Part shown: piece by piece, positions 46,080 through 64,000 of the stretch | Position numbering within the stretch: the stretch's first letter is position 1 | How the letters are laid out: each line of letters starts with the position of its first letter | Assembly (NCBI RefSeq): GCF_002848265.1 | Contig: NZ_CP025422.1 | Coordinates: forward strand, 2,820,727-2,884,726 | From: Zhihengliuella sp. ISTPL4 | GTDB taxonomy: Bacteria > Actinomycetota > Actinomycetes > Actinomycetales > Microbacteriaceae | DNA length: 64,000 nucleotides | Reading direction: 5' to 3' | Position numbers and translations under genes: made by a program | Notes under the pieces: generated by a model | Told to the model about the DNA's origin: nothing | Databases searched by the model: none | Seen by the model: the letters and a program-made list of their open reading frames with translations, nothing else

Positions 46080-46087
46080 GGGTGCCC

Positions 46088-48106: not shown

Positions 48107-51100
48107 ATGCGCTGCACCCTCGGGGTGGACATCGGCACGTCCAGCAGCAAGGGCGTCCTCGTGGCCGCCGACGGCGCGATTCTCGCGTCCGCGACCCGCG
48201 CGCACGACGTCTCCCGCCCGCACTCCGGATGGGTGGAGATGGACGGCCGCATCTGGTGGGACGAGTTCATCGATCTCGCCAGGGACCTCCTCGCCGCTGT
48301 CCCTGATGCGGAGGTCGTGGGCGTCGGTGTGAGCGGCATGGGCCCGTGCGTCCTGCTCGCCGACGAGGACGACGAGCCCGTGCGCCCCGCGATCCTCTAC
48401 GGCGTGGACACGCGCTCCACCGCGCAGATCGAGCGCATGACGACGGAACTCGGCGTCGAGGAGATCACCCGCGTGGGCGGCTCGAGCCTCACGTCGCAGG
48501 CCGGTGGGCCGAAGATCGTCTGGGTCGCCGACGAGGAGCCGGAGGCCTGGCAGCGCGCGCGGCGTCTCTACATGCCCGCCTCCTGGCTGGCTCGCAAGCT
48601 CACCGGCGCCTACGTCCTCGACCACCAGTCGGCCAGCCAGGTCTCGCCGCTGTACGACATCGAGGGCGAGCAGTGGCACGACCCCTGGTGGCAGCGGTTC
48701 GCCGCGACGATCGAGCAGCCGCCGCTGCGCTGGGCGGGGGAGATCGCGGGCACCGTGACCGCCGCTGCGGCGGACCTGACCGGCCTGCCCGAGGGGACCC
48801 CGGTCATCACCGGCACGATCGACGCGTGGACCGAGGCGGTGAGCGTCGGCGCCCACGAGGTCGGCGACCTCATGCTGATGTACGGCACGACGATGTTCCT
48901 CGTGGCGACAGGGGAGCAGACCCTTCGCACGCCCTCGATGTGGACGACCGCCGGCGCGTTCGCGGGCACGCGCAACCTCGCGGGCGGGCTGTCCACGTCC
49001 GGCGCGCTCACCGCGTGGCTGAAGGACCTCTCCGGCACCGATTACCCGACGCTGCTGGCCGAAGCGGAGGAATCGGGGCCCGGTGCGAACGGCCTGCTGA
49101 TGCTGCCGTACTTCGCCGGCGAGCGCACCCCGATCCAGGATCCGGACGCCCGCGGAGTCATCGCCGGACTCACTCTCCGGCACACCCGAGGAGACCTCTA
49201 CCGTGCCGCCCTCGAGGCCACCGCGCTGGGTGTGCGCCACAACGTCGAGACCATGCGCGCCGCCGGCGCTGACATCCGCCGGATCGTGGCGGTCGGCGGA
49301 GGGACGCAGGGGCGGCTCTGGCTGCAGGTCGTGTCCGACATCACCGGTCTCGTCCAGGAGGTGCCGCAGACGACGATCGGCGCGAGCTACGGGGCGGCCT
49401 TCCTCGCAGCGACCGCCACCGTCGAACCCGGCGCCGCGCCCGCGATCACCGACTGGAACCCCATCGTCGACACCGTCCGCCCCGACGAGACGCTGCGCCC
49501 CTTCGCCGACGCCCTCTTCGATCGGTACGTGCGCCTGTACGACGGCTCGAAGGACGTCGTCCATGAACTCGCCGCCGCCCAGCGCGACGCATCCCCCACC
49601 CCCCTCGACCCCGGAGAACTCATGACCGCCTACACCCTGCCCACCCCGGCCCCCCGTCCCACCGCAGCGCCGAAGACCGCGTACCTGATCGCGTCCGGCG
49701 ATCTCCGAGAGTCGGCCAACACGGCCGGCTGGCCCACCCAGGTCGAGCTCGAGGCCGGGGTCAGCGGCGTGCTGAACGACCTCGGGTGGACGGTCGTCCG
49801 CGCCAATGAGGTCGACCCGGAGACCGGTCACGGCTTCATCTCCAGCCAGCGCATGGGTCTCGAGGTGTTCAAGAACATCCCCGTCGACGCGCCTCTCATC
49901 GTCGCCGAGGCCGTGTGGCAGTACTCGCACCACGTGCTCGCGGGCCTCCGCACGCACGAGGGCCCGATCCTCACCGTGGCGAACTTCGCGGGCGACTGGC
50001 CCGGGCTCGTCGGTCTCCTCGGCCTCAATGCGGGCCTGACGAAGATGGACAAGCCGTACGCGACCATCTGGTCGGTCGACTTCACCGACGACTGGTTCCG
50101 CGACGGCATCCGGGAGTGGACCGAGACCGGTGCCATCACCCACGACGCCTCCCACGTGCGTCCGCTCCCCGCGCTGCCCGACAGCCCGGAGAAGGAGCTC
50201 GGCGAGGCTCTCGCCGCGGAACTGCGCGCCGAGAAGGCCATCATCGGCGTCTTCGACGAGGGCTGCATGGGCATGTACAACGCGATCTTCGACGACGAGC
50301 TGCTCAACCAGACCGGCATCTACAAGGAGCGCCTGTCGCAGTCGGCCCTCTACGCGGAGATGCTGAACGTCACCGAGGAGGAGGCCGACGCCGCCTACGA
50401 CTGGCTGGTCGAGCGCGGCATGACCTTCCGCTACGGCGAGGACGCCGCGACCGAGCTCACCCGCGAGCAGGTGCAGTGGCAGCTGAAGATGTACATCGCC
50501 GCCCTCCGCATCGCCGACGACTTCGGCCTCGACGCGGTCGGCATCCAGTACCAGCAGGGCTTGAAGGATCTCGTTCCGGCGTCGGATCTGGCGGAGGGCA
50601 TCCTGAACTCCACCGAGCGCCCGCCGGTGACGTCGCGCGACGGCTCCCGCGTGCTGCACGAGGGGCGGGCATTCCCGCACTTCAACGAGGCCGACGAGGG
50701 CGTCGCCGTCGATGCGCTCGTGACCGACCGCGTCTGGCGCGCGATGGGGCTCGTCCCCGACAACACCCTCCACGACGTGCGCTGGGGTGAGGACTTCGAT
50801 GGACAGTTCGTGTGGGTGTACGAGATCTCCGGCTCGGTGCCGGCCTCCCACCTCGGCGGCTGGCAGAACGCGGAGGGCTGGCGACAGGGGCACGTGTTCT
50901 TCCCCGCGGGCGGCGCGACGATCAACGGCGTCTCGAAGCCCGGCGAGGTCGTGCTCTCGCGGGTGTTCATCGCCGAGGGGATCCTGCAGGCGGACATCTT
51001 CCGCGCATCGGTCGTGGAGCTGCCGGCGGACGAGACGCAGCGCCGGAAGGACGCCACGAACCCGGAGTGGCCGATCGCCCATGTGGTGCTGCACGGCATC

Positions 51101-51256
51101 TCGCGCGACCAGTTCATGGCACGGCACAAGGCGAACCACGCGCAGCTCGTCTACGCCCCTGATGCCGAGACCGCGGACAAGGCGCTGATCGCGAAGGCCG
51201 CGATGTTCGACGGCATGGGGATCAAGGTCAACCTCGTCGGCGACGTCTCGATCTGA
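48107..51256 (+). CDS. FGGY carbohydrate kinase fused to an L-fucose-isomerase-like protein
   Basis: One uninterrupted 1049-residue frame. Residues 1 to ~490 are a complete FGGY kinase: the phosphate-binding CTLGVDIGTSSSKGVLVAADG, and the signature region RIVAVGGGTQGRLWLQVVSDITG. Residues ~520-1049 resemble the L-fucose/L-arabinose isomerase family (TAYLIASGDLRESAN, DEGCMGMYNAIFDDELLNQTGIYKERLSQSALYAEM, and the C-terminal HVVLHGISRDQFMARHKANHAQLVYAPDAETADKALIAKAAMFDGMGIKVNLVGDV). At the junction an in-frame ATG (49622) is preceded by CCGGAGAACTC, a good ribosome-binding site, so the isomerase may also be made alone. The pair would isomerise and phosphorylate one sugar; which one is unknown. 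LacI-type control is likely. Confidence 0.85.
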   Translation: MRCTLGVDIGTSSSKGVLVAADGAILASATRAHDVSRPHSGWVEMDGRIWWDEFIDLARDLLAAVPDAEVVGVGVSGMGPCVLLADEDDEPVRPAILYGVDTRSTAQIERMTTELGVEEITRVGGSSLTSQAGGPKIVWVADEEPEAWQRARRLYMPASWLARKLTGAYVLDHQSASQVSPLYDIEGEQWHDPWWQRFAATIEQPPLRWAGEIAGTVTAAAADLTGLPEGTPVITGTIDAWTEAVSVGAHEVGDLMLMYGTTMFLVATGEQTLRTPSMWTTAGAFAGTRNLAGGLSTSGALTAWLKDLSGTDYPTLLAEAEESGPGANGLLMLPYFAGERTPIQDPDARGVIAGLTLRHTRGDLYRAALEATALGVRHNVETMRAAGADIRRIVAVGGGTQGRLWLQVVSDITGLVQEVPQTTIGASYGAAFLAATATVEPGAAPAITDWNPIVDTVRPDETLRPFADALFDRYVRLYDGSKDVVHELAAAQRDASPTPLDPGELMTAYTLPTPAPRPTAAPKTAYLIASGDLRESANTAGWPTQVELEAGVSGVLNDLGWTVVRANEVDPETGHGFISSQRMGLEVFKNIPVDAPLIVAEAVWQYSHHVLAGLRTHEGPILTVANFAGDWPGLVGLLGLNAGLTKMDKPYATIWSVDFTDDWFRDGIREWTETGAITHDASHVRPLPALPDSPEKELGEALAAELRAEKAIIGVFDEGCMGMYNAIFDDELLNQTGIYKERLSQSALYAEMLNVTEEEADAAYDWLVERGMTFRYGEDAATELTREQVQWQLKMYIAALRIADDFGLDAVGIQYQQGLKDLVPASDLAEGILNSTERPPVTSRDGSRVLHEGRAFPHFNEADEGVAVDALVTDRVWRAMGLVPDNTLHDVRWGEDFDGQFVWVYEISGSVPASHLGGWQNAEGWRQGHVFFPAGGATINGVSKPGEVVLSRVFIAEGILQADIFRASVVELPADETQRRKDATNPEWPIAHVVLHGISRDQFMARHKANHAQLVYAPDAETADKALIAKAAMFDGMGIKVNLVGDVSI
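49610..49624 (+). promoter_or_regulatory. internal ribosome-binding site and start at the kinase-isomerase junction
   Basis: CCGGAGAACTC ends directly at ATG 49622, in frame with both halves. It is either a relic of two fused genes or a working internal start that makes free isomerase. Confidence 0.5.
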
Positions 51257-51284: not shown

Positions 51285-53186
51285 TCAGGCGGAGGGGCGG
51301 AGGTCGCTCGGCGGGCCGCTCAGCGCGCGCAGGGCGTAGAGGATCGTCGCGAGGTCGACGAGCTCCTGCACCAGCGCGCCGACGACCGCGGGGATGACGC
51401 CGGTCATCGCGACGACCATCAGCCCCACGCTCAGCCCGATCCCGATCCAGATCGCGGTGAGGGCGACGCGGAGGGTGTGCCGTCCGATCGCGACGGCGTC
51501 GACCACCTTGGCGAGCGAATCCACGAGGATGACGACGTCGGCGGCGTCTCCAGCGGCCGTCGCTCCCTTCGCGCCCATCGCGATGCCGATGTCCGCCGCC
51601 GCCAGCACAGGGGCGTCGTTCACGCCGTCGCCGACCATCAGCACGGGCCGTGGTTGCATCTCTGCGGCCAGACGCACCTTCTCGGGCGGCAGGAGCTCGG
51701 CGTGGATCTCGTCGATCCCGACCTGCCGTCCGATCGACGCCGCGGTGGTCTCCACATCCCCGGTCAGGATCGCGAGACGGTCGACCTCATGCGTCCGCAG
51801 CCAGGAGATCACGGCCGGCGCCTCCGGACGGGCGGCATCGGCGAGGACCAGGACCCCCGCGAACCGGCCGTCAACGGCGACGTAGGCGGCGGCTTGTCCC
51901 GGCGCGAGCTCCGCCCGCCCGGTGTCCGGGGCGAGGGAGGCCACATACGCCGGCTTGCCGACGACCACCGCGCGGCCGCCGATCGTCGCGGACACCCCGT
52001 TCGTCGCGGTCTCGCTCGCCTCGGTCGCGCCGTGCAGCGCCAGGCCTCGGGCGGAGGCGGTGCGACGGATGCCGTCGGCGAGCACGTGCGAGGAGTACTG
52101 CTCGGCCGAGGCGGCGAGTCGCAGGATCTCATCCGCATCGAAGCCCGGCGCCGGACGCACGTCGACGAGCTCCGGCCTCCCCTGGGTGAGCGTCCCGGTC
52201 TTGTCGAACGCCGCAGAGCGCACGCGCGCGATCTGCTCGATCACCGCACCGCTCTTCATGATGACGCCCGACTTCGCCGCCCGGGAGAGTCCACCGAGGA
52301 AGGCGACGGGAGCGGCGATCAGCAGGGGACAGGGCGTCGCCAGCACGAGCACCTCGGCGAACCGCGTGGCGTCGCCAGAGAGCGCCCAGGCCGCCCCCGC
52401 GAGCACGAGCGCGACGGCGGTGAACGGGATCGCGAACCGGTCGGCGAGACGAACGATGGGCGCGTGGGAGGACTCGGCCTGGGCGACCAGGGCGACGATC
52501 TGCTGGTACTGGCTGTCGGCGCCGGTGCGGAGGGCACGGAGGCGGATGGCCCGGCTGCCGTTGATCGCGCCGGACAGCACCTCGTCGCCTGCACCACGCG
52601 TCACGGGCAGGCTCTCGCCCGTGAGCGAGGATTCGTCGAACGACGCGCTGTCCGTGAGCAGTTCACCGTCCACGGGGATGATCTCCGCCGGGCGGACGAG
52701 AAGCACGTCGCCCACGGCCACATCGTCGACCGGCACCTCCCTCGCCGCGTCCGAGTCCGCATCCTCGGGATGTGTCAGCACATGGGCGCTGCGCGGCGAG
52801 CGATCCAGCAGAGCGGAGAGGTCGCGCTTGGCCCGGCGGCCCGCGAAGTCCTCCAGTGCTTCGCCCCCGGAGAGCATGAGGACGATGATGAGCGCCGCGA
52901 TGTACTCGCCCACCGCGAGGGTCGCCACCATGGCAACGACGGCGAGGATGTCGAGCCCGACGTGACCGTGGAGCACGTCGCGCACCATGCCGATGAGCGT
53001 CCACACGACCACCGCAGCCACGAAGATCGTCGCGACCCATCGGCCGATGGTCTCCTCCCCGGCGGCGTGGAGCGCCCCGACCACGGCGAAGACCAGGACC
53101 GTGAGCGTGATGACCGGGTAACGCCAGAGGAGTCGGAGGGCGCGCATGCGTCCAGCATCGTCGGAATCCGTGTGCACCGCCAGCAT
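51285..53186 (-). CDS. heavy-metal P1B-type ATPase without N-terminal metal-binding domain
   Basis: The 633-residue P-type ATPase has eight predicted membrane helices, actuator motif SLTGES (187-192), phosphorylation site DKTGT (D328) and hinge GDGVNDAP. The intramembrane metal motif is TPC (284-286, in LATPCPLLIAAP) instead of the CPC of copper and zinc pumps. The last helices carry LVQELVDLATILYALR, without the HEGG(T/S) of P1B-4 cobalt pumps. There is no cytosolic HMA domain or His-rich tail. The exported metal therefore cannot be assigned. ATG at 53186 has GGAAGGGG close by; M14 (53147) is an alternative start. It diverges from the endoglycosidase gene. Confidence 0.9.
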   Translation of the reverse strand: MLAVHTDSDDAGRMRALRLLWRYPVITLTVLVFAVVGALHAAGEETIGRWVATIFVAAVVVWTLIGMVRDVLHGHVGLDILAVVAMVATLAVGEYIAALIIVLMLSGGEALEDFAGRRAKRDLSALLDRSPRSAHVLTHPEDADSDAAREVPVDDVAVGDVLLVRPAEIIPVDGELLTDSASFDESSLTGESLPVTRGAGDEVLSGAINGSRAIRLRALRTGADSQYQQIVALVAQAESSHAPIVRLADRFAIPFTAVALVLAGAAWALSGDATRFAEVLVLATPCPLLIAAPVAFLGGLSRAAKSGVIMKSGAVIEQIARVRSAAFDKTGTLTQGRPELVDVRPAPGFDADEILRLAASAEQYSSHVLADGIRRTASARGLALHGATEASETATNGVSATIGGRAVVVGKPAYVASLAPDTGRAELAPGQAAAYVAVDGRFAGVLVLADAARPEAPAVISWLRTHEVDRLAILTGDVETTAASIGRQVGIDEIHAELLPPEKVRLAAEMQPRPVLMVGDGVNDAPVLAAADIGIAMGAKGATAAGDAADVVILVDSLAKVVDAVAIGRHTLRVALTAIWIGIGLSVGLMVVAMTGVIPAVVGALVQELVDLATILYALRALSGPPSDLRPSA

Positions 53187-53204
53187 CCCCTTCCGGCCCC
53201 CGTG

Positions 53205-53219
53205 CTTAAGCGATATAGT
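53205..53219 (+). promoter_or_regulatory. N-glycan regulon operator a and -10 of the endoglycosidase gene
   Basis: CTTAAGCGATATAG (53205-53218) is one of five CTNNAKCGNTWTAG sites in this locus. TATAGT (53214-53219) inside it is a near-consensus -10. Confidence 0.7.
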
Positions 53220-53282
53220 CGGCCGCGAGTCGCGACGTCGCGACCCGATCTCGACAACGACGCCGAAGGAGAAGATCCCGTC

Positions 53283-54215
53283 ATGAGTTCCTCACCCGCA
53301 CGATCGTCCCGCCTGACAAGAGGTATCGCGGCAGCAGTGGCGTTCGCTGCCGCCGGAGCCGCCGCCCTCGCCGCCTCGACCGCGGCGGTCGCCGATGCCG
53401 ATGCCGTCGACCCGAAGCTCGCCGTCTATGTCGAGGTGAACTCGAACGATTTAGCGAACGTCGCGGACTACACGCTCGCCGAGTCGGGCCGTCCCGCCGT
53501 CGATCTGGCCATGATCTTCGCCGCGAACATCAATTACGACGGGGAGCGGGCGGTCCTCCACCTCAACGACCGGGTCACCGAGACGCTGCAGGATGCGCAG
53601 AACCAGATCCGCCCGCTGCAGGCCCAGGGCACCAAGGTGCTGCTGTCGGTGCTCGGAAACCACCAGGGGGCCGGCTTCGCGAACTTCACGTCGTACGCGG
53701 ACGCGGACGCCTTCGCCGCGCAGCTCGCCGATACCGTGACCACTTACGGCCTCGACGGCATCGACTTCGACGACGAGTGGAGCAACTACGGGGCGAACGG
53801 CACGCCGCAGCCGAACGCACAGTCCTTCGGCTGGCTCGCCTCCGCGCTGCGCGACCGCCTCGGGCCGGACAAGCTCATCACGCTGTATGCGATCGGCCCG
53901 TCCTACACGACCACGGATTTCGGCCTCTTCGACGCCGGCAGCGTGCTCGATCACGCCTGGAACCCGTACTACCCGACCTACGACGCTCCCACCGTGCCGG
54001 GCCTGGACGACCGTGGCCGGCTCGGCGCCGCGGCGATCGACCTCGCGAACACGAGTGCCGCGACGGCCGCCGACTTCGCTCAGCGCACGGTGGCTGACGG
54101 GTACGGCGTGTATGTCGCGTACAACCTCACCGCGACGAACCAGTCGGCCTACCTCTCCGGCATCACCGAGGCGCTGAAGGGCGAGGCGACCGTTTACCGC
54201 ACAGCCGCGCGGTGA
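53283..54215 (+). CDS. secreted endo-beta-N-acetylglucosaminidase, Endo H-like (GH18)
   Basis: The 310-residue protein has an N-terminal signal peptide (RLTRGIAAAVAFAAAGAAALAAS) with likely cleavage near VADADA. The mature enzyme has the GH18 active-site strand LDGIDFDDEW (DxxDxDxE, acid Glu-165), which in Streptomyces plicatus Endo H reads almost the same. VYVEVNSNDLANVADYTL is the first barrel strand of the Endo H group. It cuts between the two core GlcNAc residues of high-mannose N-glycans outside the cell. A LacI-type operator overlaps its promoter -10. It converges head-on with the GH92 gene (one base between stops), and the rest of the N-glycan pathway lies beyond it. Confidence 0.92.
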   Translation: MSSSPARSSRLTRGIAAAVAFAAAGAAALAASTAAVADADAVDPKLAVYVEVNSNDLANVADYTLAESGRPAVDLAMIFAANINYDGERAVLHLNDRVTETLQDAQNQIRPLQAQGTKVLLSVLGNHQGAGFANFTSYADADAFAAQLADTVTTYGLDGIDFDDEWSNYGANGTPQPNAQSFGWLASALRDRLGPDKLITLYAIGPSYTTTDFGLFDAGSVLDHAWNPYYPTYDAPTVPGLDDRGRLGAAAIDLANTSAATAADFAQRTVADGYGVYVAYNLTATNQSAYLSGITEALKGEATVYRTAAR

Positions 54216-54216
54216 G

Positions 54217-57200
54217 TCAGTCCAGGTCGAAGAGCTCGATCTGACGGAGCGTGATCTCGGCCTCCGCGCGGATGCGGACGGCCGAGGTCACGACCCGCGT
54301 CTCCCAGGTGAACGGCGTCGTCCGGTCGGAGGCCAGGTCTTCCCGGTGCGTGGTGGCGAGGGGATGCCAGCCGCCATCGGCACCCTCCATCTCCCAGCGG
54401 AGCGCGACGGCTGCCGCGGGCACGAGGCTCGTGACGGTGACGTCGGTGAGGCCGCGGGGTGAGGGGAATCGCCAGCCCACCCACGAGCCTTCTGGCAGCC
54501 GGACGCCCTCGTCACCCCGCGGGTCGCCATCGTCGAACAGGCGCGGCGCCTCGCGGACATCCGCGGAGGCGACGGCCTCTCCCTCTCCCCCCGTGAGATC
54601 GCGGTGCCACGGCTCCGCGTCGAGCGCGTCCGCCCCGGTCTCCAGCGCGCGCTCCGGGTCCGTGCCGAACACGAGGTCGAGCACCGCGTCTCCCCGGAGC
54701 GCGTCGATCGGGAGGTCGGCAGTGGGGAGAGGGCGCCCGTCCAGTCGTGCCTCCTCCAGCACGTGGGCTTCGGGGGAGCTGCGTCGCGAGCGGATGCGCA
54801 GCAATGAGCCGTCCCCGCGCGCGACGCGGATGTCGTCGGAGAGCGGCGACCCGATCCGCAGTGTTCCTGACGCGAGTTCCAGGGGGTAGAGGCCGAGCGC
54901 GGCCCAGAGCCACCAGGCGCTCATCTCTCCGTTGTCCTCGTCGCCGGGGAAGCCCTGGCCGATGTGCGCACCGGCGAAGAGACGGCGCGCGAGGCCGTGC
55001 ACGAGGCCCGCGCTGTGCCACGGCCGGTCGCTGAAGGCATACATGAAGGGGATGTGGTGGGCCGGTTGATTCGACAGGGCGCACATGCCCGACCGCTGGG
55101 CGCGGGCCTCCCGCTGCTCGTGGATGACCGTGCCGTACGCGCCGCCGAAGCGCTCGTCGGCGGTCTCCGGCTCCGCGAAGAGGGCGTCGAGGTGCCGGCC
55201 GAGTCCGGTCCGCCCGCCGTGCAGCGCCGCGAGTCCCGGCCCGTCGTGCACCGTGCCGACCGACATGCCCCAGGCGTTGGTCTCGACGTTGTCGCCACCC
55301 CAGACCCGAGGATCGAAATCCGGCGCGAACGAGCCGTCCGCCGCGCGACCTCGGAAGAATCCGGACGCCGGGTCGAAGAGCGCGCGCGCCGCGCAGGAGC
55401 GATTCGCGAAGTACCGCGCGAAGGCGCGATAGCGCGCGGCCTGGTCCGTCGCTGATGCCGCGAGCCGGGCGGCGAACCGCCCGAGGGCGGCGTCGCTCAC
55501 GACGTTCTCGATGCTCCAGCTCATCCCCTCCGGCACGTCGGACGGGATGAAGCCGAGGAAGCGCCCGCGGCCGATGCCCTTGCGACCCCGTCGCGGATCG
55601 GGTCCCGGCTCGCACGCGTGGCGCCACCCGCTCTCGAATGCCGTCTCCCGGTCGAAGGGCACGTCCCAACGCGCGGCGTCGGCGAAGATCTGGTCGCTCG
55701 AGGTGCCGACCATGCTGTCGACGTACCCGGGGGCGCTCCAGCGGGCCATCCAGCCGCCGCGGCGATACTGGGCAAGCTGCCCGTCCAGCAGGCGCCCGGT
55801 CAGCGTGGGGTCGAGGAGCGCGAGCGCGGGCCACTCGGTGCGGTACGTGTCCCAGTAGCCGTTGTTGACGACGAGCTCGCCCTCCGCGACCGGCGCTCCC
55901 GTGGTGGTCTCTCCGAAGGCGGTCCGCGGAGCGAACACGTCGGCGAACCGCCACGCCGGTGCCTCCGCGGTGCCCGTGTTCTCCGCCGCCGTGTTCGGAT
56001 ACAGATGCATTCGGTGGAGCGCGGCGGCGATCCGGGCACGCTGCTCCTCGTCGGCCAGGCCGCGGAACGGACGCTCCGCCTCGGGGAGCGGGGGGATCGT
56101 CACGCGACCGAGCACGCGGTTCCACGCGGCGGCCGCGCGGGCGCGGAGCTCGTCGAAGGGAACGGCGGGAGGGGCCTCGAGGGTGAGGCTGTGCCGAGCC
56201 TGCGCGACGGAGAGGAACGAGACCCCGACCCGCACCTCGACAGCGCCCCCGGCGCGGACGAAGCCAGCGACCTGGGCGCGTCCGTCGTCGTCCAGGGCGC
56301 CGCAAGCGACGTCCGAGGCGCTGTGCACGGTGCCGGCGAAGTAGCAGCGCGGCGCGTTCCCCCAGTCCTCGGGCCCCTCGGGGATCCAGCCCTCGAAGCC
56401 GGCGTCGGTGAAGGTGAGTCGGCCGTCGTCCGTGAGCTGGTCGATCACGAACCCCACGGCGTGCGGGTCGTCGCACCGCACGCGGAACGCGGCGGCATGC
56501 GACGTCGCGGTCATCTCGACCTGCAGCCCGTCGCCGAGGTCCGCGGCGTACTCGTGCGGGCGGGCCCGCTCGCTCTCGGGGACGATCCAGCGACGTCGGG
56601 CCGCCCTGTCCGACGTCGGCGTCCCCCGGAACGGCATGAGCTGGAGCACCGAGCGATCGCCGATCCACGGGCTGGGCTGGTGCGAGAACTGCAGCGCCTC
56701 GAGACGCCGCCCCTGGGGATCGTCGTGCACGAACGGGCGATACGGCCATCGCGGGTCCGCCGCATCGGTCGCGGGCGTGACGAAGGTGAAGCCGTGCGGC
56801 ACGGCGACCGCCGGGATCGTGTTCCCGCGGGAGAAGCGCGGGCCGGAGTGGGAGCCGCGCCGGGTGTCGACCCGCTCGACGGGTGGGAGATCGTCGGGGG
56901 CAGGGCGCTCCTCGACGCGGACCTGGACGAAGCCGCTGACCTCGGCGGGCACATCCGGCGTGGTCGCGAGATCGGCGGTACCGAAGACGAGCTCGACCGT
57001 GCCGGTGCCCCTCCCGACGGCAAGGGGCGCGAGGGCGACGCTGTCGGCATTCCACTGCTCGGGCATGCTCCACCGGGCGGCGAACTGTCCCTCGGCCGTG
57101 AGCGGGAAGTCGTAGCGGTCGCGGACGGCAGCGATGTCGCTCAGTCGGCTGCCGTCGGCGCTCCGCACGTCGACGGCGACCGCGAGCGCGGCCCAGGGGG

Positions 57201-57417
57201 CGAGGGTCGCGGCGGGGCTGTCGGCGTAGAACGCCCAGTGCAGCACGGTGTCCGGGGTGAGGGCGATGCCGTCGAGGCCGGGGACGTCGACCCGCTGCGC
57301 CCTGCGGGACGGATCGAACGTGTACGCGAAGACCGGCCCGGGAAACACCCCGGCGTGGGGGCGCGACGACGGAGGATCCGCGGGACCGGAGGCCGGGCGG
57401 AGCTGCGGCGCGTTCAC
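54217..57417 (-). CDS. GH92 alpha-mannosidase, no signal peptide
   Basis: The 1066-residue enzyme has an N-terminal beta domain, then the GH92 (alpha/alpha)6 catalytic domain. Diagnostic blocks are NTAAENTGT, NGYWDTYRTEWPALALLDP, KGIGRGRFLGFIPSD, SNQPAHHIPFMYAFSDRPWHS and GFPGDEDNGEMSAWWLWAALGLYPLELASGTLRIGSPL. The glutamate and aspartates in the last block contribute to calcium-dependent inverting catalysis. The final ~110 residues resemble a carbohydrate-binding discoidin domain. GH92 enzymes remove alpha-1,2-mannose (sometimes 1,3) from high-mannose glycans. The start is GTG at 57417, overlapping the permease stop by four bases, and the protein lacks a signal peptide, so it acts on imported glycan. 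Last gene of the importer operon. Confidence 0.92.
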   Translation of the reverse strand: MNAPQLRPASGPADPPSSRPHAGVFPGPVFAYTFDPSRRAQRVDVPGLDGIALTPDTVLHWAFYADSPAATLAPWAALAVAVDVRSADGSRLSDIAAVRDRYDFPLTAEGQFAARWSMPEQWNADSVALAPLAVGRGTGTVELVFGTADLATTPDVPAEVSGFVQVRVEERPAPDDLPPVERVDTRRGSHSGPRFSRGNTIPAVAVPHGFTFVTPATDAADPRWPYRPFVHDDPQGRRLEALQFSHQPSPWIGDRSVLQLMPFRGTPTSDRAARRRWIVPESERARPHEYAADLGDGLQVEMTATSHAAAFRVRCDDPHAVGFVIDQLTDDGRLTFTDAGFEGWIPEGPEDWGNAPRCYFAGTVHSASDVACGALDDDGRAQVAGFVRAGGAVEVRVGVSFLSVAQARHSLTLEAPPAVPFDELRARAAAAWNRVLGRVTIPPLPEAERPFRGLADEEQRARIAAALHRMHLYPNTAAENTGTAEAPAWRFADVFAPRTAFGETTTGAPVAEGELVVNNGYWDTYRTEWPALALLDPTLTGRLLDGQLAQYRRGGWMARWSAPGYVDSMVGTSSDQIFADAARWDVPFDRETAFESGWRHACEPGPDPRRGRKGIGRGRFLGFIPSDVPEGMSWSIENVVSDAALGRFAARLAASATDQAARYRAFARYFANRSCAARALFDPASGFFRGRAADGSFAPDFDPRVWGGDNVETNAWGMSVGTVHDGPGLAALHGGRTGLGRHLDALFAEPETADERFGGAYGTVIHEQREARAQRSGMCALSNQPAHHIPFMYAFSDRPWHSAGLVHGLARRLFAGAHIGQGFPGDEDNGEMSAWWLWAALGLYPLELASGTLRIGSPLSDDIRVARGDGSLLRIRSRRSSPEAHVLEEARLDGRPLPTADLPIDALRGDAVLDLVFGTDPERALETGADALDAEPWHRDLTGGEGEAVASADVREAPRLFDDGDPRGDEGVRLPEGSWVGWRFPSPRGLTDVTVTSLVPAAAVALRWEMEGADGGWHPLATTHREDLASDRTTPFTWETRVVTSAVRIRAEAEITLRQIELFDLD

Positions 57418-58346
57418 CCCTTCAGTGCACCCTCCTGCACGCCCTTGAAGAAGAAGCGCTGCGTGAAGGAGAACATGATGACGATGGGTACGAGCGCGAT
57501 CATGGTGCCGGCGGCGATGAGTCGCGGATCGACCGAGAAGCTGCTGTTGAGGTAGGCCATGCCGACGGTCAGGGTGTACTTCGCCGGGTCGGAGAGCACG
57601 ATGAGCGGCCAGAGGTAGTCGTCCCACGCGCCGATGAAGGCGAAGATCGCCACGACCGAGACCATGCCGCGGATGTTCGGCCACACGATGTGCCGGATGC
57701 GCTGCCACGTGGTCGCACCGTCGACGGTGGCCGCGTCCAGCACGTCCTTCGGGATCATGCGGCACGCGGTGGCGACGAGCAGCACGTTCATGGCGCTGAT
57801 CGCTCCGGGGAGGAACACGCCCCACAGGGTGTCGGCGAGCCCGAGCGCGCGGATGGTGAGGAAGTTGCTGGTGACCGTGACCTCGCCGGGGAACAGCAGC
57901 GTGGACAGCAGGATGCCCATGACGATCCACTTCCCGCGGAAGCGCATGCAGCCCAGGGCGTAGCCGGCGAACGTGGCCAGGATCACGTTGCTGAGCACGG
58001 TGCCGAGCGAGACGAGCAGCGAGTGCCAGGCGTAGAGGTAGACGGGGACGATGTCGGCGACCCTCGTGTAGTTCTGCAGCGTCGGATCGCGGGGGATGAG
58101 CTCGGGCGGGAAGGAGTAGATGTTCTCCTGCGGTCCCTTGAACGAGGTGGAGAGCTGCCAGACGAAGGGGCCGATGACGAGGAACAGGACGAACAGCAGC
58201 AGCGCGTACCGGCCGATGAGTCCGCCGAGCGTGGGCTTGCTGAAATCGCCGGAACCGCGGCGGCGGAAGATGCGCTCGCGGCCGGGCCGCGGTGCCTCCT
58301 CCGCGGGCGGAGTGCTCTCCACCGGGGGCGTCGTCAGAGTCGTCAT
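57414..58346 (-). CDS. CUT1 ABC sugar permease (MalG type), N-glycan importer
   Basis: The 310-residue permease has a long charged N-terminus (TPPVESTPPAEEAPRPGRERIFRRRGSGDFSKP). Six helices begin YALLLFVLFLVIGPFVWQLSTSFKG, and the EAA loop is DVLDAATVDGATTWQRIRHIVWPNIRG. Its start overlaps the preceding permease stop (ATGA) and its stop overlaps the GH92 GTG, so the operon is fully coupled. No ATPase is encoded locally. Confidence 0.92.
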   Translation of the reverse strand: MTTLTTPPVESTPPAEEAPRPGRERIFRRRGSGDFSKPTLGGLIGRYALLLFVLFLVIGPFVWQLSTSFKGPQENIYSFPPELIPRDPTLQNYTRVADIVPVYLYAWHSLLVSLGTVLSNVILATFAGYALGCMRFRGKWIVMGILLSTLLFPGEVTVTSNFLTIRALGLADTLWGVFLPGAISAMNVLLVATACRMIPKDVLDAATVDGATTWQRIRHIVWPNIRGMVSVVAIFAFIGAWDDYLWPLIVLSDPAKYTLTVGMAYLNSSFSVDPRLIAAGTMIALVPIVIMFSFTQRFFFKGVQEGALKG

Positions 58347-59230
58347 GCGGAGACCTTCGCCTTCTTCTCGCGGTTCATGAATGCGATCGCCGCGAGCGGC
58401 ACGAGCGTGAGGAGGAACAGCGCCACGCTGATCGCGGACGCGTAGCCGATGTTGCCGTTCAGGCCCGAGCCCACCTGGCGGATGAGCATCACGAGCGACA
58501 TGTCGTAGCCGCCGGGGCCGCCCGTGCTCTTGGACAGCACGTCCAGCTCGGCGAACACCCGCATGGCGGACACCGCGATGAGCACGGCGATGAGGAGCAT
58601 CGCCCCGCGGACGGACGGGATCGTGACGGAGAGGAAGCGGCGGAAGGAGCTCGCACCGTCGAGCATCGCGGCCTCGTGCAGCTCCTTGCCCACGTTCCCC
58701 AGGGCGGCGAGGTACACGACCATGTAGTATCCGAGCCCCTTCCACACGGTCAGCAGGATCGCGCAGCCGAGCAGCAGCCAGCGGTCGACGAGGAAGGCCA
58801 TCGGCTGATCGATGAGGCCGAGGAACTCCAGGGTCTGGTTGATGATGCCGCGACTGTCGAACAGCCACGTCCAGATGAGGGCGACCACGACGACCGAGGC
58901 GATGACGGGGAAGTAGAACGTGGTGCGGAAGAACGAGATGCCGGGGAGCTTCTTCTGTACGAGGAGCGCGAGGAGCAGCGGGAGGATCGTGAGCAGCGGC
59001 ACGCACACGACCACGTAGATGAGGCAGGTGGTCAGCGCGTTCCAGAACATCTCGTCGCCGAACATGCGCTCGTAGTTGGCGCCGCCGACGAACTCCGGGG
59101 TCCGCAGGGGGCGGGCGTCCGTGAAGCTGAGGACGACGGTGTTCAGGAACGGCCAGAGCGCGAACACCAGCACCCAGATCACGGCGGGGGCGAGGAGCAG
59201 CCACGGGGTGAACCACTTGTGGGATCTCAT
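58343..59230 (-). CDS. CUT1 ABC sugar permease (MalF type), N-glycan importer
   Basis: The 295-residue permease has six helices, starting KWFTPWLLLAPAVIWVLVFALWPFLNTVVLSFTDARPL. The EAA loop is ELHEAAMLDGASSFRRFLSVTIPSVRG. ATG at 59230 is chosen because GGAGG stands six bases upstream. An earlier in-frame ATG at 59269 lies two bases after the binding-protein stop but lacks such a signal. It works with the adjacent MalG-type permease and lipoprotein, presumably importing the Endo H-released oligomannose glycan. Confidence 0.9.
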   Translation of the reverse strand: MRSHKWFTPWLLLAPAVIWVLVFALWPFLNTVVLSFTDARPLRTPEFVGGANYERMFGDEMFWNALTTCLIYVVVCVPLLTILPLLLALLVQKKLPGISFFRTTFYFPVIASVVVVALIWTWLFDSRGIINQTLEFLGLIDQPMAFLVDRWLLLGCAILLTVWKGLGYYMVVYLAALGNVGKELHEAAMLDGASSFRRFLSVTIPSVRGAMLLIAVLIAVSAMRVFAELDVLSKSTGGPGGYDMSLVMLIRQVGSGLNGNIGYASAISVALFLLTLVPLAAIAFMNREKKAKVSA

Positions 59231-59271
59231 CGTCGACCTCCGCTGCCGGGTGCCGGTGTCCGCGCGCATGC

Positions 59272-60573
59272 TCACTGGTCCACGCGGTTCGCGTTGGCGT
59301 ACTCGACGATCTTGTCGAGCTGCGTCTTGGCGTCGGCCTCGCCGTTCACGGCCAGGGCGATCTGCTGGGTCATGTACGTGGCCATGTCCGAGGTCCACTG
59401 GAAGGGCAGCGCCTTGGCGTCCTTCATCGCGCCGAACACGGTGTCGATCGCGGCGAGCTGCTTCTCTTCCGTGACCGAGGAGGCGATGTTCTCGACCACC
59501 TGGTCGCCGCCGTCGGCCGTGCCGGGGGCGGTGCCGACCGCGAGGGAGGAGAACGCGACCTGGTTCTCCTGATTCGTGGCGAACTCGGCGAACGCGAGGG
59601 CCGCTTCCTTGTTGTCGGAGTCGGCGGACACGTTGAGGCCCTGCACGTAGAGCGGGGCGACGCCGAGGCGCGGGGTGGCGACGGTGTTCTCCAGCAGTGC
59701 CGGGGCGTCCTTCTGCAGATCGGTCGTGAAGCCGGTGCCGCCGGTCGTGAACGCGACCTTCTCCTGGATGTACGCCTCCGCGTTCCCGCCGTAGTCGCCG
59801 GTCAGTGCCTCCGCGGGCATCGCGCCCGCCGCGTAGGCGTCGGCGTACTGCTCGATGATCGCGGCGGCCTCATCGGTGTTGAAGTCGAACTCGCCCTCGT
59901 CGTTGATGACCTCCATGCCGGCGGCGGTGAAAGTGTCGAGCGCCGGGATCGAGGAAAGGAGCTGGACCTTGCCGCCGGACTCCGTGGCGACGTCCTTCGC
60001 GAGCGTGAGCAACTCGTCGACCGTCGTCGGGAGGTTCTCCTCGGTGACGCCGTACGGGGCGAGCTGCGCGAGGTTCCACCAGGACGCGTCGCTCGAGAGG
60101 TACCACGGCAGGCCGTAGGTGCCCTCGACGCCGGGGTACTGGCTGTACGCGTCCCAGGCGCCGGCGTTGTATGCCGCCTTCAGGTCGGGATCCGCGGTGT
60201 CCAGGTCGAGGAGCTTCCCGGCGGCGACGAGCGGATAGGCGATGTCCGGAGGCAGGTTCAGCACGTCGGGCAGGGTGTCGGCGTTCGCCTGGCTGAGGAT
60301 CTTCTCCTGGTAGCCGTCGCCGGGCTGGTCGAGCCACTCGACGGTCACGTCCGGGTGCTCCTCCTCGAAGGCCGCGATGAGGTCTTCGAAGTACGGGGTG
60401 AACTTCTCGTTCTTCAGGGACCACGTCTGGAACTGGATGGTGCCGCTGAGCTCACCGGAGGTGTCGATGGGGCCGGCGCCGTCCGAGGCGGCACCGCCTC
60501 CCGTGCAGCTCACGAGCGCCAGGGCGCCGATCGTGAAGGTTGCCAGAGCGACAATGCGTGCGGGAACTTTCAT
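59272..60573 (-). CDS. CUT1 ABC importer substrate-binding lipoprotein, N-glycan locus
   Basis: The 433-residue lipoprotein has the signal PARIVALATFTIGALALVSC with Cys-23 lipidated, then a Gly/Ala spacer. The mature protein is a family-1 solute-binding protein (IQFQTWSLKNEKFTPYFEDLIAAFEEEHPDVTVEWLDQPGDGYQEKILSQANADTLPDVLNL). It is the first gene of the minus-strand importer-GH92 operon. Operator b, a LacI-type site, lies 49-62 bases upstream of its ATG. GAGGAAGAAGC provides the ribosome-binding site. Expected cargo is Man5-9GlcNAc or a trimmed product, inferred from the neighbouring glycosidases. Confidence 0.92.
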   Translation of the reverse strand: MKVPARIVALATFTIGALALVSCTGGGAASDGAGPIDTSGELSGTIQFQTWSLKNEKFTPYFEDLIAAFEEEHPDVTVEWLDQPGDGYQEKILSQANADTLPDVLNLPPDIAYPLVAAGKLLDLDTADPDLKAAYNAGAWDAYSQYPGVEGTYGLPWYLSSDASWWNLAQLAPYGVTEENLPTTVDELLTLAKDVATESGGKVQLLSSIPALDTFTAAGMEVINDEGEFDFNTDEAAAIIEQYADAYAAGAMPAEALTGDYGGNAEAYIQEKVAFTTGGTGFTTDLQKDAPALLENTVATPRLGVAPLYVQGLNVSADSDNKEAALAFAEFATNQENQVAFSSLAVGTAPGTADGGDQVVENIASSVTEEKQLAAIDTVFGAMKDAKALPFQWTSDMATYMTQQIALAVNGEADAKTQLDKIVEYANANRVDQ

Positions 60574-60621
60574 CGTGCTTCTTCCTCGAGGCGGGCGATT
60601 CGGCGTGGTCCGACGAAGGGA

Positions 60622-60635
60622 CTACAGCGCTTTAG
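60622..60635 (-). promoter_or_regulatory. N-glycan regulon operator b (importer-GH92 operon)
   Basis: CTACAGCGCTTTAG on the plus strand (CTAAAGCGCTGTAG on the gene strand), upstream of the binding-protein start. It is the most symmetric of the five sites. Confidence 0.7.
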
Positions 60636-60689
60636 CAGATGAAACCATCGGATCCCGCCGGTGTCAAGACGTGCCTATCGATGCTGATG

Positions 60690-60704
60690 CTCAAGCGTTA
60701 TAGT
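60690..60704 (+). promoter_or_regulatory. N-glycan regulon operator c and -10 of the GH5_18-like gene
   Basis: CTCAAGCGTTATAG (60690-60703) overlaps TATAGT (60699-60704), 46 bases before the ATG at 60751. Same arrangement as operator a. Confidence 0.7.
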
Positions 60705-60750
60705 GGTGCGACATGTCCTCGTGGGAGGGCGCGGTCCGAAAGGTGCACAC

Positions 60751-62055
60751 ATGACGCAGCGCGGCGCTCTCGACGCCCCTCTCCGCTTCGGGGCGAACTA
60801 CACGCCGTCGAAGGACTGGATGCACTCCTGGCTCGACTTCACGCCGGACGACGTGCGTCGCGACTTCGCGGCCCTCGCCGCGCTCGGCCTCGACCACGTG
60901 CGCGTGTTCCCGCTCTGGACCGTCCTGCAGCCGAACCGCACCCTCATCCGCTCCCAGGCGGTCGACGACGTGCGCATCATGGTCGACATCGCCGCCGAGT
61001 TCGGGCTGGACGCGAGCGTCGATGTCATCCAGGGGCATCTGTCGAGCTTCGACTTCGTCCCGTCCTGGCTGTACACCTGGCACGACCGGAACATGTTCAC
61101 CGATCCGAGCGCCCTGGACGGCCAGGCGCAGCTCGTGGAGCGGCTGGCCGGCGCGCTGCGGGACGCGCCGAACTTCCTCGGGCTCACGCTCGGCAACGAG
61201 ACGAACCAGTTTTCCGCGCACACCCACCCCTCGCCGTGGCCCGTCACGACCGACGAGGCGGGCGGCTGGATCGAGGCGCTGCTCGCCGCGGCGGAACGGG
61301 GCGCCCCGGGGCTGCCGCACGTGCACAGCGAGTACGACGCGGTCTGGTACATGGACGACCACGGGTTCACGCCCGCGCATGCCTCCCGGCTCGGCGCGAT
61401 GACGACCATCCATTCCTGGATCTTCAACGGCACCGCCCAGCGCTACGGCGGCCGCTCGATCGCGGCCGACCGTCATGCGGAGTACCTCATCGAGCTGTCC
61501 CGCGCCTTCGCGACCGACCCCGCCCGTCCGATCTGGCTGCAGGAGGTCGGCGCCCCCTCGAACTGCCTCGACGAGAGCGAGATGCCCGGCTTCCTCGAGG
61601 CCACCGTGCGCTCGGCCCTCCGCACCGAGAACCTCTGGGGTGTGACCTGGTGGTGCTCGCACGACGTGAGCAGGGAGCTCGCCGACTTCCCGGAGCTCGA
61701 GTACTCCCTGGGGCTCATCGATCAGGCGGGCGCGGCGAAGCCCCTCGGCCGCCGGTTTGCGGAGCTCATCCCCGAGCTGCGCACCCGTACCGCGGCTCCA
61801 GCCCGTCCGACGGCGATCGTCGTCGACGTCGACGAGCAGGAGGTGCCGGTGAGCCGGGCGGCGCTGAGCCCCGGCGGTGCGGTCTTCCAGGCCTGGGTCG
61901 ACGCCTGCGCCGCGGGCGAGGACCCCGCGCTGGTGACCTCCCGCGCCGCGCAGGACCCCGCGGCTCTGGAGTCGCGCGGCATCCACCGTCTCATCCACCC
62001 CGCCGCGTCCGCGTCCGACGTCACCCGCTACGCCTCCGTCAACACCGTCGTCTGA
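60751..62055 (+). CDS. GH5_18-like beta-mannosidase (Man-beta-1,4-GlcNAc cleaving candidate)
   Basis: The 434-residue cytoplasmic protein (no signal peptide) has a GH5 TIM barrel. It begins [19 protein letters not shown], then [20 protein letters not shown] and the acid/base in [17 protein letters not shown] (Glu-150) with nucleophile IWLQEVGAP (Glu-265). This sequence style matches GH5 subfamily 18, whose Bifidobacterium member cleaves the Man-beta-1,4-GlcNAc core disaccharide of N-glycans. That is the expected last step after Endo H, GH92 and GH38 action. ATG at 60751 follows AAAGG by seven bases. Control by the LacI regulator is indicated by operator c. The C-terminal ~80 residues form a small extra domain. 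Confidence 0.85.
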
Positions 62056-62056
62056 G

Positions 62057-62116
62057 TCGCCGAGACCCCGGGTTGTCGTCGAGACCCCGGGGTGCGCGCG
62101 TCGAGAGCCCGGGGTG
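62057..62116. repeat. three tandem copies of a TCGTCGAGACCCCGGGGTG-type motif
   Basis: Near-identical 19-22 bp units lie at 62057-62075, 62076-62097 and 62098-62116, between convergent genes. GAGACCCC can also pair with GGGGTCTC at 62130-62137, so the array may act as a bidirectional transcription stop. No T-run is present. Confidence 0.5.
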
Positions 62117-62135
62117 TGGGCGGGGAGGCGGGGTC

Positions 62136-63161
62136 TCAGCGGGGTGGTGGTGCCGTGCTCTCGCGGGCGGTGAGCACCGGGGTCGGGCCCTCGACGCTCG
62201 GCAGCGTGGTCCCGGCCTCGATCTGCTGCAACAACAGCGTGGCGGCCTGCTCGCCGAGTTCGAACGTGTCGCGGGTCATGGCGGTGATCGACGGGTTGAT
62301 GAGACCCGCGATGACGGAGTCGTCGAACGACGCGAGCGAGACGTCACGCGGAACCGCCCGGCCCATCTCCTGCGCGACCCGGAGCCCGGCGACGGCCATC
62401 ACGTCGTTGTCGTAGACGATCGCGGTCGGGCGCTGCCGGCCGGAGAGCTGCGCGCGTGTGACGGCGGAGGCGCGGGTGGGGGAGAAGTCGGTCGTGATGA
62501 CCTCGCCGGCGATGCCGTCCGCCGCCATCCGCTCCAGCACCTCGGCACGCAGGCGGGTGTGCTCCAGCTCGGCCGGGCCCGCGACGTACGCGATGCGCGT
62601 GTGCCCGAGGGCAGCCAGATAGGAGAAGAGGGTCTCCGCGACGGTGTCGTCGCCGATCCACACACTCGGCACGGCGCCGTCCGGCGACGGCTTCGAGCCG
62701 ATCATCACGGCGCGGGCGTCCAGCGCGGTGATGCGCGCGCCGCGAGGGTCGTCGTCGCGCGGGTCGATGAGGATGATGCCGTCGACCTGATTCGACGACC
62801 GCCACTGCCGGTGCACCTCCATCTCTTCGTCGATGTCGGCGACGAGGCGGAGCTGCAGCCCGACCTTGCTCTCGGAGAGCCGGGACTCGATGCCGGCGAT
62901 GAGATCGGTGAAGAAGGCCTCGGAGCCGAGGGAGCGCGCCGGCCGGGCGAGGGCGAATCCGACGGCGTTGGCCCGGGCGCCGACGAGGGCGCGCGCGGCG
63001 GAGCTCGGCTGCCACTGGTGCTCCTCGATGATCGAGAGGATGCGTTGCCGCGTCTCCTCGCTCACACCGGGACGACCGTTGAGGGCGAACGAGACGGCAC
63101 CGGGGGAGACGCCGGCCATGCGCGCGATATCCGCGATGGTCACGCGCTTCCCCGGGGTCAT
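62136..63161 (-). CDS. LacI family regulator of the N-glycan locus
   Basis: The 341-residue LacI/GalR repressor has the HTH VTIADIARMAGVSPGAVSFALNGRPGVSEETRQRILSIIEEHQWQPSSAARALVGARAN with hinge helix, then the effector-binding domain (VGFALARPARSLGSEAFFTDLIAGIESRL, GIILIDPRDDDPRG, TAIVYDNDVMAVAGLRVAQEMGRAVPRDVSLASFDDS). ATG at 63161 is preferred: TAGGGT lies seven bases upstream, acting either as a -10 of a leaderless message or as a ribosome-binding site. An ATG at 63167 is an alternative. Operator d directly precedes it. The regulator probably binds all five CTNNAKCGNTWTAG sites and is released by a mannose-containing sugar. Confidence 0.92.
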   Translation of the reverse strand: MTPGKRVTIADIARMAGVSPGAVSFALNGRPGVSEETRQRILSIIEEHQWQPSSAARALVGARANAVGFALARPARSLGSEAFFTDLIAGIESRLSESKVGLQLRLVADIDEEMEVHRQWRSSNQVDGIILIDPRDDDPRGARITALDARAVMIGSKPSPDGAVPSVWIGDDTVAETLFSYLAALGHTRIAYVAGPAELEHTRLRAEVLERMAADGIAGEVITTDFSPTRASAVTRAQLSGRQRPTAIVYDNDVMAVAGLRVAQEMGRAVPRDVSLASFDDSVIAGLINPSITAMTRDTFELGEQAATLLLQQIEAGTTLPSVEGPTPVLTARESTAPPPR

Positions 63162-63168
63162 AGGCATC

Positions 63169-63174
63169 ACCCTA
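63169..63174 (-). promoter_or_regulatory. candidate -10 of the LacI gene
   Basis: TAGGGT on the minus strand abuts operator d and is seven bases from the chosen ATG. Confidence 0.35.
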
Positions 63175-63188
63175 CTTGATCGGTTTAG
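63175..63188 (-). promoter_or_regulatory. N-glycan regulon operator d (LacI autoregulation)
   Basis: CTTGATCGGTTTAG matches the shared consensus and lies immediately upstream of the LacI gene -10-like box. Confidence 0.7.
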
Positions 63189-63228
63189 CCTCTCGAAAGC
63201 AGGGGAGAACGTGCCGTAGACTCCCGTG

Positions 63229-63243
63229 CTAGATCGTTTTAGT
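63229..63243 (+). promoter_or_regulatory. N-glycan regulon operator e and -10 of the GH38 gene
   Basis: CTAGATCGTTTTAG (63229-63242) overlaps TTTAGT (63238-63243), 52 bases before the GH38 ATG. It is 40 bases from operator d, so one divergent region carries two sites. Confidence 0.7.
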
Positions 63244-63294
63244 AACACGCGCATCGAACCCAGTCCCTCACCGTCGAGCCCGGAGAACCCCACC

Positions 63295-64000
63295 ATGCAT
63301 GACGACACCTCGCTCACCGTCGGCCGCGTCAAGCGGGTCCTCGAAGAGCGCATCCGCCCGGCCATCCACTCGGCCGCGGTTCCCCTCACGATCGAGGCGC
63401 ACCAGCTCCCCGGAGAGCCCATCGCCCCGGCGGAGGGGCTGGCGCTCTCGTTCGCCCCGGCTGCGGTCGGCGAGCTGTGGGGCCCGGCCTGGGGAACCAC
63501 GTGGTTCAAGCTCACCGGTCGGGTGCCCGCGGAATGGGCCGGCCGCCGGGTCGAGGCGCTGATCGACCTGGGCTTCGACGTGAACATGACGGGCTTCCAG
63601 TGCGAGGCCCTCGCCTACCGCCCCGACGGCACGCCGATCAAGAGCATCAATCCGCGCAACCAGTGGGTGCCGATCGTCGAGACCGCCGCGGGTGACGAGC
63701 CCGTCGAGCTCTACCTGGAGGGTGCGTCCAACCCCGTCCTCCTCGACTACCATCCCTTCCTGCCGACCCAGGAGGGCGACATCCTCACCTCCTCGAAGGA
63801 GCCGCTGTACCGGCTGCGGCGCCTCGACCTCGCGGTGTTCGAGCCCGAGGTGTTCGATCTCTCCCTCGACCTCGAGGTGCTGTTCGAGCTGCAGGCGGAG
63901 CTCCCCGCCACGTCGCCGCGCCGCATGCGCATCCTGCAGGCCCTGGATGACGCGCTCGACGTGCTCGACCTGCAGCACATCGTGGAGACCGCCGGCGACG
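63295..64000 (+). CDS. GH38 alpha-mannosidase, N-terminal part (truncated by window end)
   Basis: 235 residues are visible, open to the last base. The sequence matches the N-terminal domain of Ams1-like GH38 alpha-mannosidases: LTVGRVKRVLEERIRPAIH, GELWGPAWGTTWFKLTGRVPAEWAGRRVEALIDLGFD, GFQCEALAYRPDGTPIKSINPRNQWVPI and LYLEGASNPVLL, then a helical stretch (RRMRILQALDDALDVLDL) that precedes the catalytic domain, which lies outside the window. Full-length members have about 1000 residues. There is no signal peptide, so it acts inside the cell, removing alpha-1,3/1,6-linked core mannoses from imported N-glycan. CCGGAGAACCCCACC precedes ATG 63295. Operator e overlaps its promoter. Confidence 0.9.
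   Translation, partial: MHDDTSLTVGRVKRVLEERIRPAIHSAAVPLTIEAHQLPGEPIAPAEGLALSFAPAAVGELWGPAWGTTWFKLTGRVPAEWAGRRVEALIDLGFDVNMTGFQCEALAYRPDGTPIKSINPRNQWVPIVETAAGDEPVELYLEGASNPVLLDYHPFLPTQEGDILTSSKEPLYRLRRLDLAVFEPEVFDLSLDLEVLFELQAELPATSPRRMRILQALDDALDVLDLQHIVETAGD

Follow-up and report, generated by a model that had tools for sequence, protein, structure and literature searches.

A predicted LacI-family regulon at an N-glycan utilisation locus of Zhihengliuella sp. ISTPL4 and related Microbacterium, with a conserved operator inside the endoglycosidase gene

Which regulator governs the N-glycan utilisation genes of Zhihengliuella sp. ISTPL4, and from which sites in the DNA? The question is raised by a 64,000-nucleotide stretch of contig NZ_CP025422.1 (assembly GCF_002848265.1, positions 2,820,727 to 2,884,726; hereafter the window), in which genes for a secreted endo-beta-N-acetylglucosaminidase H (EndoH), an ABC importer, alpha-mannosidases of glycoside hydrolase (GH) families GH92 and GH38, and a GH5_18 beta-mannosidase lie together with a gene for a LacI-family regulator. 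A sequence-only reading of the window had proposed that five copies of one 14-bp operator, one per transcription start, define a regulon read by this neighbouring LacI. The locus is very probably an ordinary autoregulated LacI-family regulon, judged from its sequence, with predicted binding of LacI to six sites, one of which is an unusual, conserved operator within the EndoH coding sequence. Regulons of this kind are well known, and the intragenic operator is the unusual part.

The five 14-mers at positions 53205, 60622, 60690, 63175 and 63229 are present exactly as they had been written, and they do share the pattern CTNNAKCGNTWTAG with nine fixed positions. This pattern has five matches in the whole 3.53-Mb genome, all inside the locus, and the same pattern read backwards as a control has none on the forward strand and one on the reverse strand; the mean number of matches in 100 dinucleotide shuffles of the window was 0.00. 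The whole-genome search, which had been set as a refuting test of the regulon, returned no crowd of equal matches at unrelated promoters in this genome. The asymmetric pattern masks the palindromic nature of the sites, and a search with the symmetric form CTAAANCGNTTTAG, allowing up to two mismatches, found seven places in the genome, six in the locus and one outside it (reversed control, eight). The six locus places are the five 14-mers and CTCGAACGATTTAG, at 53441 to 53454 inside EndoH; the five copies thus stand, but not as the total. All six are imperfect palindromes, with 4 to 6 of the 7 half-site positions symmetric, and the CG that had been noted as central occupies positions 7-8 in every one of them, as in the even palindromes of the LacI family. 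A possible extra regulon member from the two-mismatch search, CAAAACCGATTTCG at 757865, was rejected as it lacks the CT..AG ends. A looser pattern, CTNNANCGNTNNAG, has 18 places in the genome, comprising the six sites described here and 12 elsewhere that were not counted as sites, and its reversed form has 28 on each strand.

Five of the six operators lie at promoters, those of EndoH, the importer-GH92 operon, GH5_18, lacI and GH38, and the proposal of one site per transcription start holds for all of these except that EndoH has a second, intragenic site. Operator 1, CTTAAGCGATATAG (53205..53218, forward strand), operator 3, CTCAAGCGTTATAG (60690..60703, forward), and operator 5, CTAGATCGTTTTAG (63229..63242, forward), are each followed by T, giving TATAGT, TATAGT and TTTAGT, and their right ends fall within -10-like boxes of EndoH (53214-53219), GH5_18 (60699-60704) and GH38 (63238-63243), respectively; the letters of this shared overlap agree with the sequence-only reading. 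Operator 2, which reads CTAAAGCGCTGTAG on the minus strand (60622..60635), is at the importer promoter as proposed, but it lies 3 nt downstream of the TTTCAT of a predicted TTGACA-N17-TTTCAT promoter (60639..60667, minus strand) and not on the -10 box. The arrangement TTGACA-N17-TTTCAT-N3-operator is kept in 19 of 19 loci of the closest clade of relatives (clade 1, below). Operator 4 (63175..63188, minus strand) stops 13 nt short of the start codon of lacI, a gene whose -10 box is not clear. From positions such as these, a repressor on the DNA would be expected to block RNA polymerase.

Among 198 same-genus genomes, GH5_18 is present in 58, and 59 loci were sampled from 57 of these, including the ISTPL4 genome itself; two genomes contributed two loci each, and G172, where the locus meets a contig edge, was left out. 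Clade 1 comprises 19 loci with LacI proteins at least 87% identical, and clade 2 comprises 26 loci with LacI proteins 58-66% identical. The four sites in the intergenic regions between the solute-binding protein (SBP) gene of the importer and GH5_18, and between lacI and GH38, are kept in all 19 clade-1 loci, among them the autoregulatory lacI site at 63175-63188, and the sites form conserved islands within the intergenic alignments; operator 3 is identical in 20 of the 20 loci listed. EndoH is present in 17 of the 19 clade-1 loci, all of which keep both its promoter site and its intragenic site, and for the remaining two, G135 and G126, the genus-wide search returned no EndoH. Two loci (L055 and L062) carry inserts of about 3 and 6 kb between GH5_18 and lacI and retain all six sites. 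Over the 19 clade-1 genomes, matches to the pattern CTNNANCGNTWTAG sum by hand to 114, with 110 within the loci and 4 elsewhere, and the reversed control gives 48. Clade-2 loci have at least one site in 25 of 26 cases, frequently with a site in the SBP-GH5_18 gap and another at lacI, and their six EndoH genes always lie behind GH92 on the same strand without a site of their own. GH5_18 of G184 (L098) and GH38 of G042 (L072) are each split over two matches, suggesting that the genes are broken or the assemblies in error.

The sixth operator, CTCGAACGATTTAG (53441..53454, forward strand), starts on the third base of EndoH codon 53 and ends on the first of codon 58, and as the next base is C rather than T, it makes no -10 box like those at the three promoters. 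It is 236 bp from the EndoH promoter operator, a spacing of 232-238 bp in 17 loci and of 234-236 bp in 15 of them. Codon 56 is GAT and codon 57 is TTA in 17 of 17 clade-1 EndoH genes, in one aligned column. TTA is used only 17 times in the 77,559 codons of mapped genes in 19 loci, each time at EndoH codon 57, and at other conserved positions GAC is the commonest Asp codon (16 columns) and Leu is encoded by CTC or CTG (12 columns). A search for EndoH at E<=1e-40 was positive in 27 of the 198 genomes, and all 18 of the EndoH genes that have a promoter operator carry the intragenic one too, against none of the nine that lack it; these nine read GAC ATG, GAC CTC or GAG CTG at the equivalent of codons 56-57. 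Six of these nine sit in the importer operon behind GH92, an arrangement from which the operator pair is absent in all six loci, and the other three are in G030, G172 and G043. On this codon usage, the sixth site is under constraint at the level of DNA and not of protein, and it forces the TTA codon. In lying inside transcribed coding sequence and being conserved as DNA, the site displays part of what would be expected of an intragenic roadblock.

The LacI gene lies where it had been placed (62136..63161, reverse strand), and its product has the helix-turn-helix (PF00356, 50.1 bits, cut-off 27) and the periplasmic-binding-protein-like sensor domain (PF13377, 106.3 bits, cut-off 26.5) of the family, both above curated cut-offs. 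A site is present in 44 of the 45 loci with a local LacI ortholog (at least 55% identity). A site also occurs in six of the other 14 loci. For five of the six, the ortholog (61-90%) is encoded elsewhere in the genome and the fetched stretch contains no LacI, and the sixth (L099) has a LacI of 51% identity. The eight loci without a site comprise three from genomes with no LacI match at E<=1e-60 (G033, G071 and G036) and five with local LacI matches of only 34-51%. The ISTPL4 genome holds 18 LacI-type DNA-binding domains, and the helix PGAVSF is found in only one, that of the locus LacI. The residue at the position termed AA-20 is Arg in 13, Asn in two, and Tyr, Val and Phe in one each, Phe being that of the locus LacI (six of the 18 were read by eye from the sequence). 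Among the 45 local orthologs, 44 have PGAVSF and one has QGAVSF, while overall identity drops to 58%. In the available text of Camas et al. (PMC2978694), the AA-20 residue is tied to the sixth base of the half-site, which is G with Arg; here the sixth base is T, with Phe at AA-20. Genome specificity, conservation over 19 loci, co-occurrence with LacI and a unique helix thus support the proposal of an N-glycan regulon, and the neighbouring LacI is, with high confidence, the predicted reader of the sites.

Several observations weigh against this assignment or narrow its reach. Kinship inflates the counts, as the 19 clade-1 loci are not independent observations. The pattern CTNNANCGNTWTAG has at least one match in 114 of the 198 genomes (by hand count, 54 of the 58 GH5_18 genomes and 60 of the 140 that lack GH5_18), and G036, which lacks LacI, carries one match far from its locus. 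G187 (L088) encodes a LacI ortholog (58%) and has no recognisable site, and no near-miss with up to three changes was found by its genes. A looser form of the importer promoter-plus-operator pattern was found in none of the 26 clade-2 loci, and the promoter layout is therefore not claimed for clade 2. No -35 box is clearly conserved at GH5_18, EndoH or GH38, so that the -10 boxes assigned to these promoters are guesses. Outside the genus, 43 loci were inspected, of which six without lacI in range were uncounted and 37 were scored: upstream of lacI, SBP or GH38, a site of the form CT..A.CG.T..AG occurs in 10 of 26 loci with Phe and in 2 of 11 without, counts that lend little weight to a strict helix-to-motif code beyond the genus. 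The reversed pattern and a TG..CA pattern were found in none of these 37 loci. Four of the genomes without a GH5_18 match (G063, G053, G055 and G027) contain two copies of CTGAACCGGTTTAG, or of the near copy CTTAACCGGTTTAG in the case of G027, at 20-25 bp from each other, and G085 has a single CTGAACCGGTTTAG-type site about 60 bp before a LacI match; such sites probably belong to a related LacI with its own operator.

The proposed mechanism is one in which the locus LacI would act as an autoregulated local repressor. The sugar-free dimer would bind the six imperfect palindromes near CTAAANCGNTTTAG and shut five transcription units, namely EndoH, the importer-GH92 operon, GH5_18, lacI and GH38. 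LacI bound at a promoter would block RNA polymerase, and at the second EndoH operator, which lies in the coding sequence some 220 nt past the predicted start, it would most likely form a roadblock to elongation. A cytoplasmic product of high-mannose N-glycans (Man-GlcNAc, a manno-oligosaccharide or mannose) would release LacI. It is highly unlikely that another regulator, either a LacI paralog or a global factor, binds these sites instead: the genome does hold 17 further LacI-type domains, binding by the adjacent LacI is a prediction, and motif matches also occur in genomes that lack GH5_18, but none of the 17 has the helix PGAVSF, the locus sites track the LacI ortholog wherever it is encoded, with one exception, and a global factor is ill suited to a motif with no places (strict pattern) or one (symmetric form) outside the locus in this genome. 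An equally slim chance attaches to activation by LacI at some promoters in place of pure repression, a role that three promoters lacking a clearly conserved -35 box might seem to invite; four of the five promoter operators, however, overlap a -10-like box or lie just downstream of one, the usual position for repression, and the lacI operator ends 13 nt before the start codon.

The intragenic operator admits two further explanations. The rare TTA codon could itself be the functional element, a translational switch of the kind known from bldA in Streptomyces, with the operator match as a by-product. This is the least probable of the alternatives: TTA is indeed found nowhere else in the codons surveyed, but a codon switch leaves unexplained the invariant GAT (17 of 17), the full operator match and the absence of this match from the nine EndoH genes without a promoter operator. 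DNA looping between the two EndoH operators in place of a roadblock, as between lac O1 and O2 or gal OE and OI, is a more serious contender, though still an unlikely one. The two sites co-occur in 18 of 18 EndoH genes at a tight spacing, but with 10.5 bp to the helical turn, the distinct spacings scatter between 0.1 and 0.67 of a turn. The locus LacI has 341 residues and can be matched to E. coli LacI only as far as its residue 322 (residue 315 of the 360-residue E. coli chain), so that the C-terminal helix, through which E. coli LacI forms tetramers, seems to be absent; the tetramerising repressor of lac-type looping is thus lacking by sequence, although a helper protein could take its place. 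Helical phasing of operator pairs is not claimed as a general rule. The SBP-GH5 operators are 68-69 or 99-101 bp apart and the lacI-GH38 operators 21, 52-55 or 97 bp apart, and the three steps between these spacings correspond to roughly 3, 3 and 4 turns, but the EndoH pair has no constant phase and the steps were seen after the fact. As LacI lacks the lac tetramer helix and the spacing is not strictly phased, an elongation roadblock is favoured as the function of the intragenic site, with some confidence. The fuller reading, in which a conserved EndoH operator pair, its second member encoded within the gene, where it requires the only TTA codons that the locus family uses, serves a LacI-family dimer as a roadblock on a secreted endoglycosidase in Microbacterium, is held to be reasonably probable.

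The genes themselves are those of an N-glycan utilisation locus, with endoglycosidase, importer, alpha-mannosidases and GH5_18 beta-mannosidase encoded together. EndoH (GH18; 53283..54215, forward) matches NCBIfam NF045482 at 362.3 bits (cut-off 300), and its signal peptide was recognised by inspection of the sequence. On the reverse strand, the importer SBP (59272..60573; PF13416, PF01547) is followed by two permeases (58343..59230 and 57414..58346; both PF00528) and by the GH92 alpha-mannosidase (54217..57417; PF07971, 304.5 bits; TIGR01180), and from their adjacency these genes probably form one operon, of which GH92 is the last. GH5_18 (60751..62055, forward), an exo-beta-mannosidase, is hit by neither Pfam nor NCBIfam at E<=0.001, but among PDB sequences it matches solved GH5_18 beta-mannosidases, namely 9y4v (847 bits, the nearest), 7lr7 (ScGH5_18, 513 bits) and 6gvb (359 bits). 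The 9y4v sequence covers all 434 residues, and 847 bits is in the range of same-genus orthologs from a separate search. GH5_18 loci at 76% identity or more are all from Microbacterium, save one unplaced actinomycete bin. The GH38 alpha-mannosidase (63295..64000, forward) continues beyond the window (L016 11022-14015), and the full gene, for 997 aa, matches PF01074 (307 bits) and PF07748 (179.2 bits). By their predicted functions, EndoH would release high-mannose glycans outside the cell, the importer would take them up, GH92 and GH38 would trim mannose, and GH5_18 would split Man-GlcNAc. The importer genes (57414-60573) encode a binding protein and two permeases, with no ATPase adjoining; a shared ATPase encoded elsewhere is likely, as such separately encoded, shared importer ATPases are a habit of Actinobacteria. 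A 1049-aa gene at 48107-51256 encodes, in one chain, an FGGY sugar kinase and the C-terminal domain of an L-fucose isomerase and lies near another LacI gene (46082-47071); it perhaps serves fucose from N-glycan cores, and no operator copy is found at either gene.

The EndoH leader contains a 9-bp stem with a 4-nt loop (53226-53247), beginning at about the predicted first base of the transcript. Over 18 leaders including its own (17 distinct), pairing holds in 91.5% of pair cells and in 23.5-43.1% once the stem is slid, the stem having been drawn from the same leader sequences on which pairing was scored. Changes on both sides occur at four of the nine pairs, and further pair types are no more numerous than in shuffles. 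The GH5_18 leader has a short stem (GTCCTC..GAGGGC, 60714-60731) that varies on both sides among relatives. Mean folding z-scores, from mononucleotide shuffles, are -1.30 for GH5_18 (18 leaders), -1.90 for EndoH (16), -0.14 for the importer, 0.39 for GH38 and -0.07 for lacI, and no Rfam match was found in 53100-63500.

With a defined operator and a named regulator, the regulon opens N-glycan foraging in a widespread genus to direct testing, and the inducer of LacI would reveal which product of glycan breakdown is sensed by the cell. At the intragenic site, codon choice clearly gives way to a regulatory element, and the pairing of a CT half-site with Phe at the key helix position is a suggested addition to a recognition code drawn from Arg-bearing LacI proteins.

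Among the papers listed on N-glycans, GH5_18, LacI, Microbacterium, Bifidobacterium and Actinobacteria, no title points to a LacI regulon for N-glycan genes, which does not establish its absence from print. In the accessible text of Ravcheev et al. 2014 (PMC4052901), 1173 of 1303 LacI-family regulators have an even palindrome with a central CG and 72% are autoregulated; the text lists mannose regulators (ManR) and uses the word N-glycan 0 times. The locus resembles these sugar regulons, as far as that text describes them, in its even CG-centred palindrome, its autoregulation, sites near catabolic genes and several sites in divergent promoters. Fewer than 1% of the sites there lie in coding regions, with lacZ and purB as examples, whereas one of the six sites here is coding and conserved (PMC4052901, same text). 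The N-glycan locus of Cutibacterium acnes also combines GH38 and GH5_18 with a GH18 gene, and cytoplasmic trimming of the N-glycan core was proposed for it (PMC6160142); activity on N-glycans is known only for homologues of the present enzymes (PMC6160142). That locus differs in having GH20, whereas the present one has GH92 and a LacI with mapped predicted operators; LacI occurs 0 times in the text of that paper, although a figure legend marks a regulator gene. E. coli lac likewise combines a promoter operator (O1) with an auxiliary one inside its first gene (O2 in lacZ), but the LacI studied here apparently lacks the tetramer helix, the spacing is 236 bp and the gene encodes a secreted endoglycosidase. 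In E. coli purB, a PurR operator within the coding sequence, 200-odd nt downstream of the start, reportedly acts as a roadblock. The purB operator is credited in PMC4052901 to He et al. 1992. EndoH shares with purB a LacI-family dimer, here a predicted one, and an operator inside the coding sequence, and it differs in its additional promoter operator, in the conservation of the two together and in their link to a rare codon.

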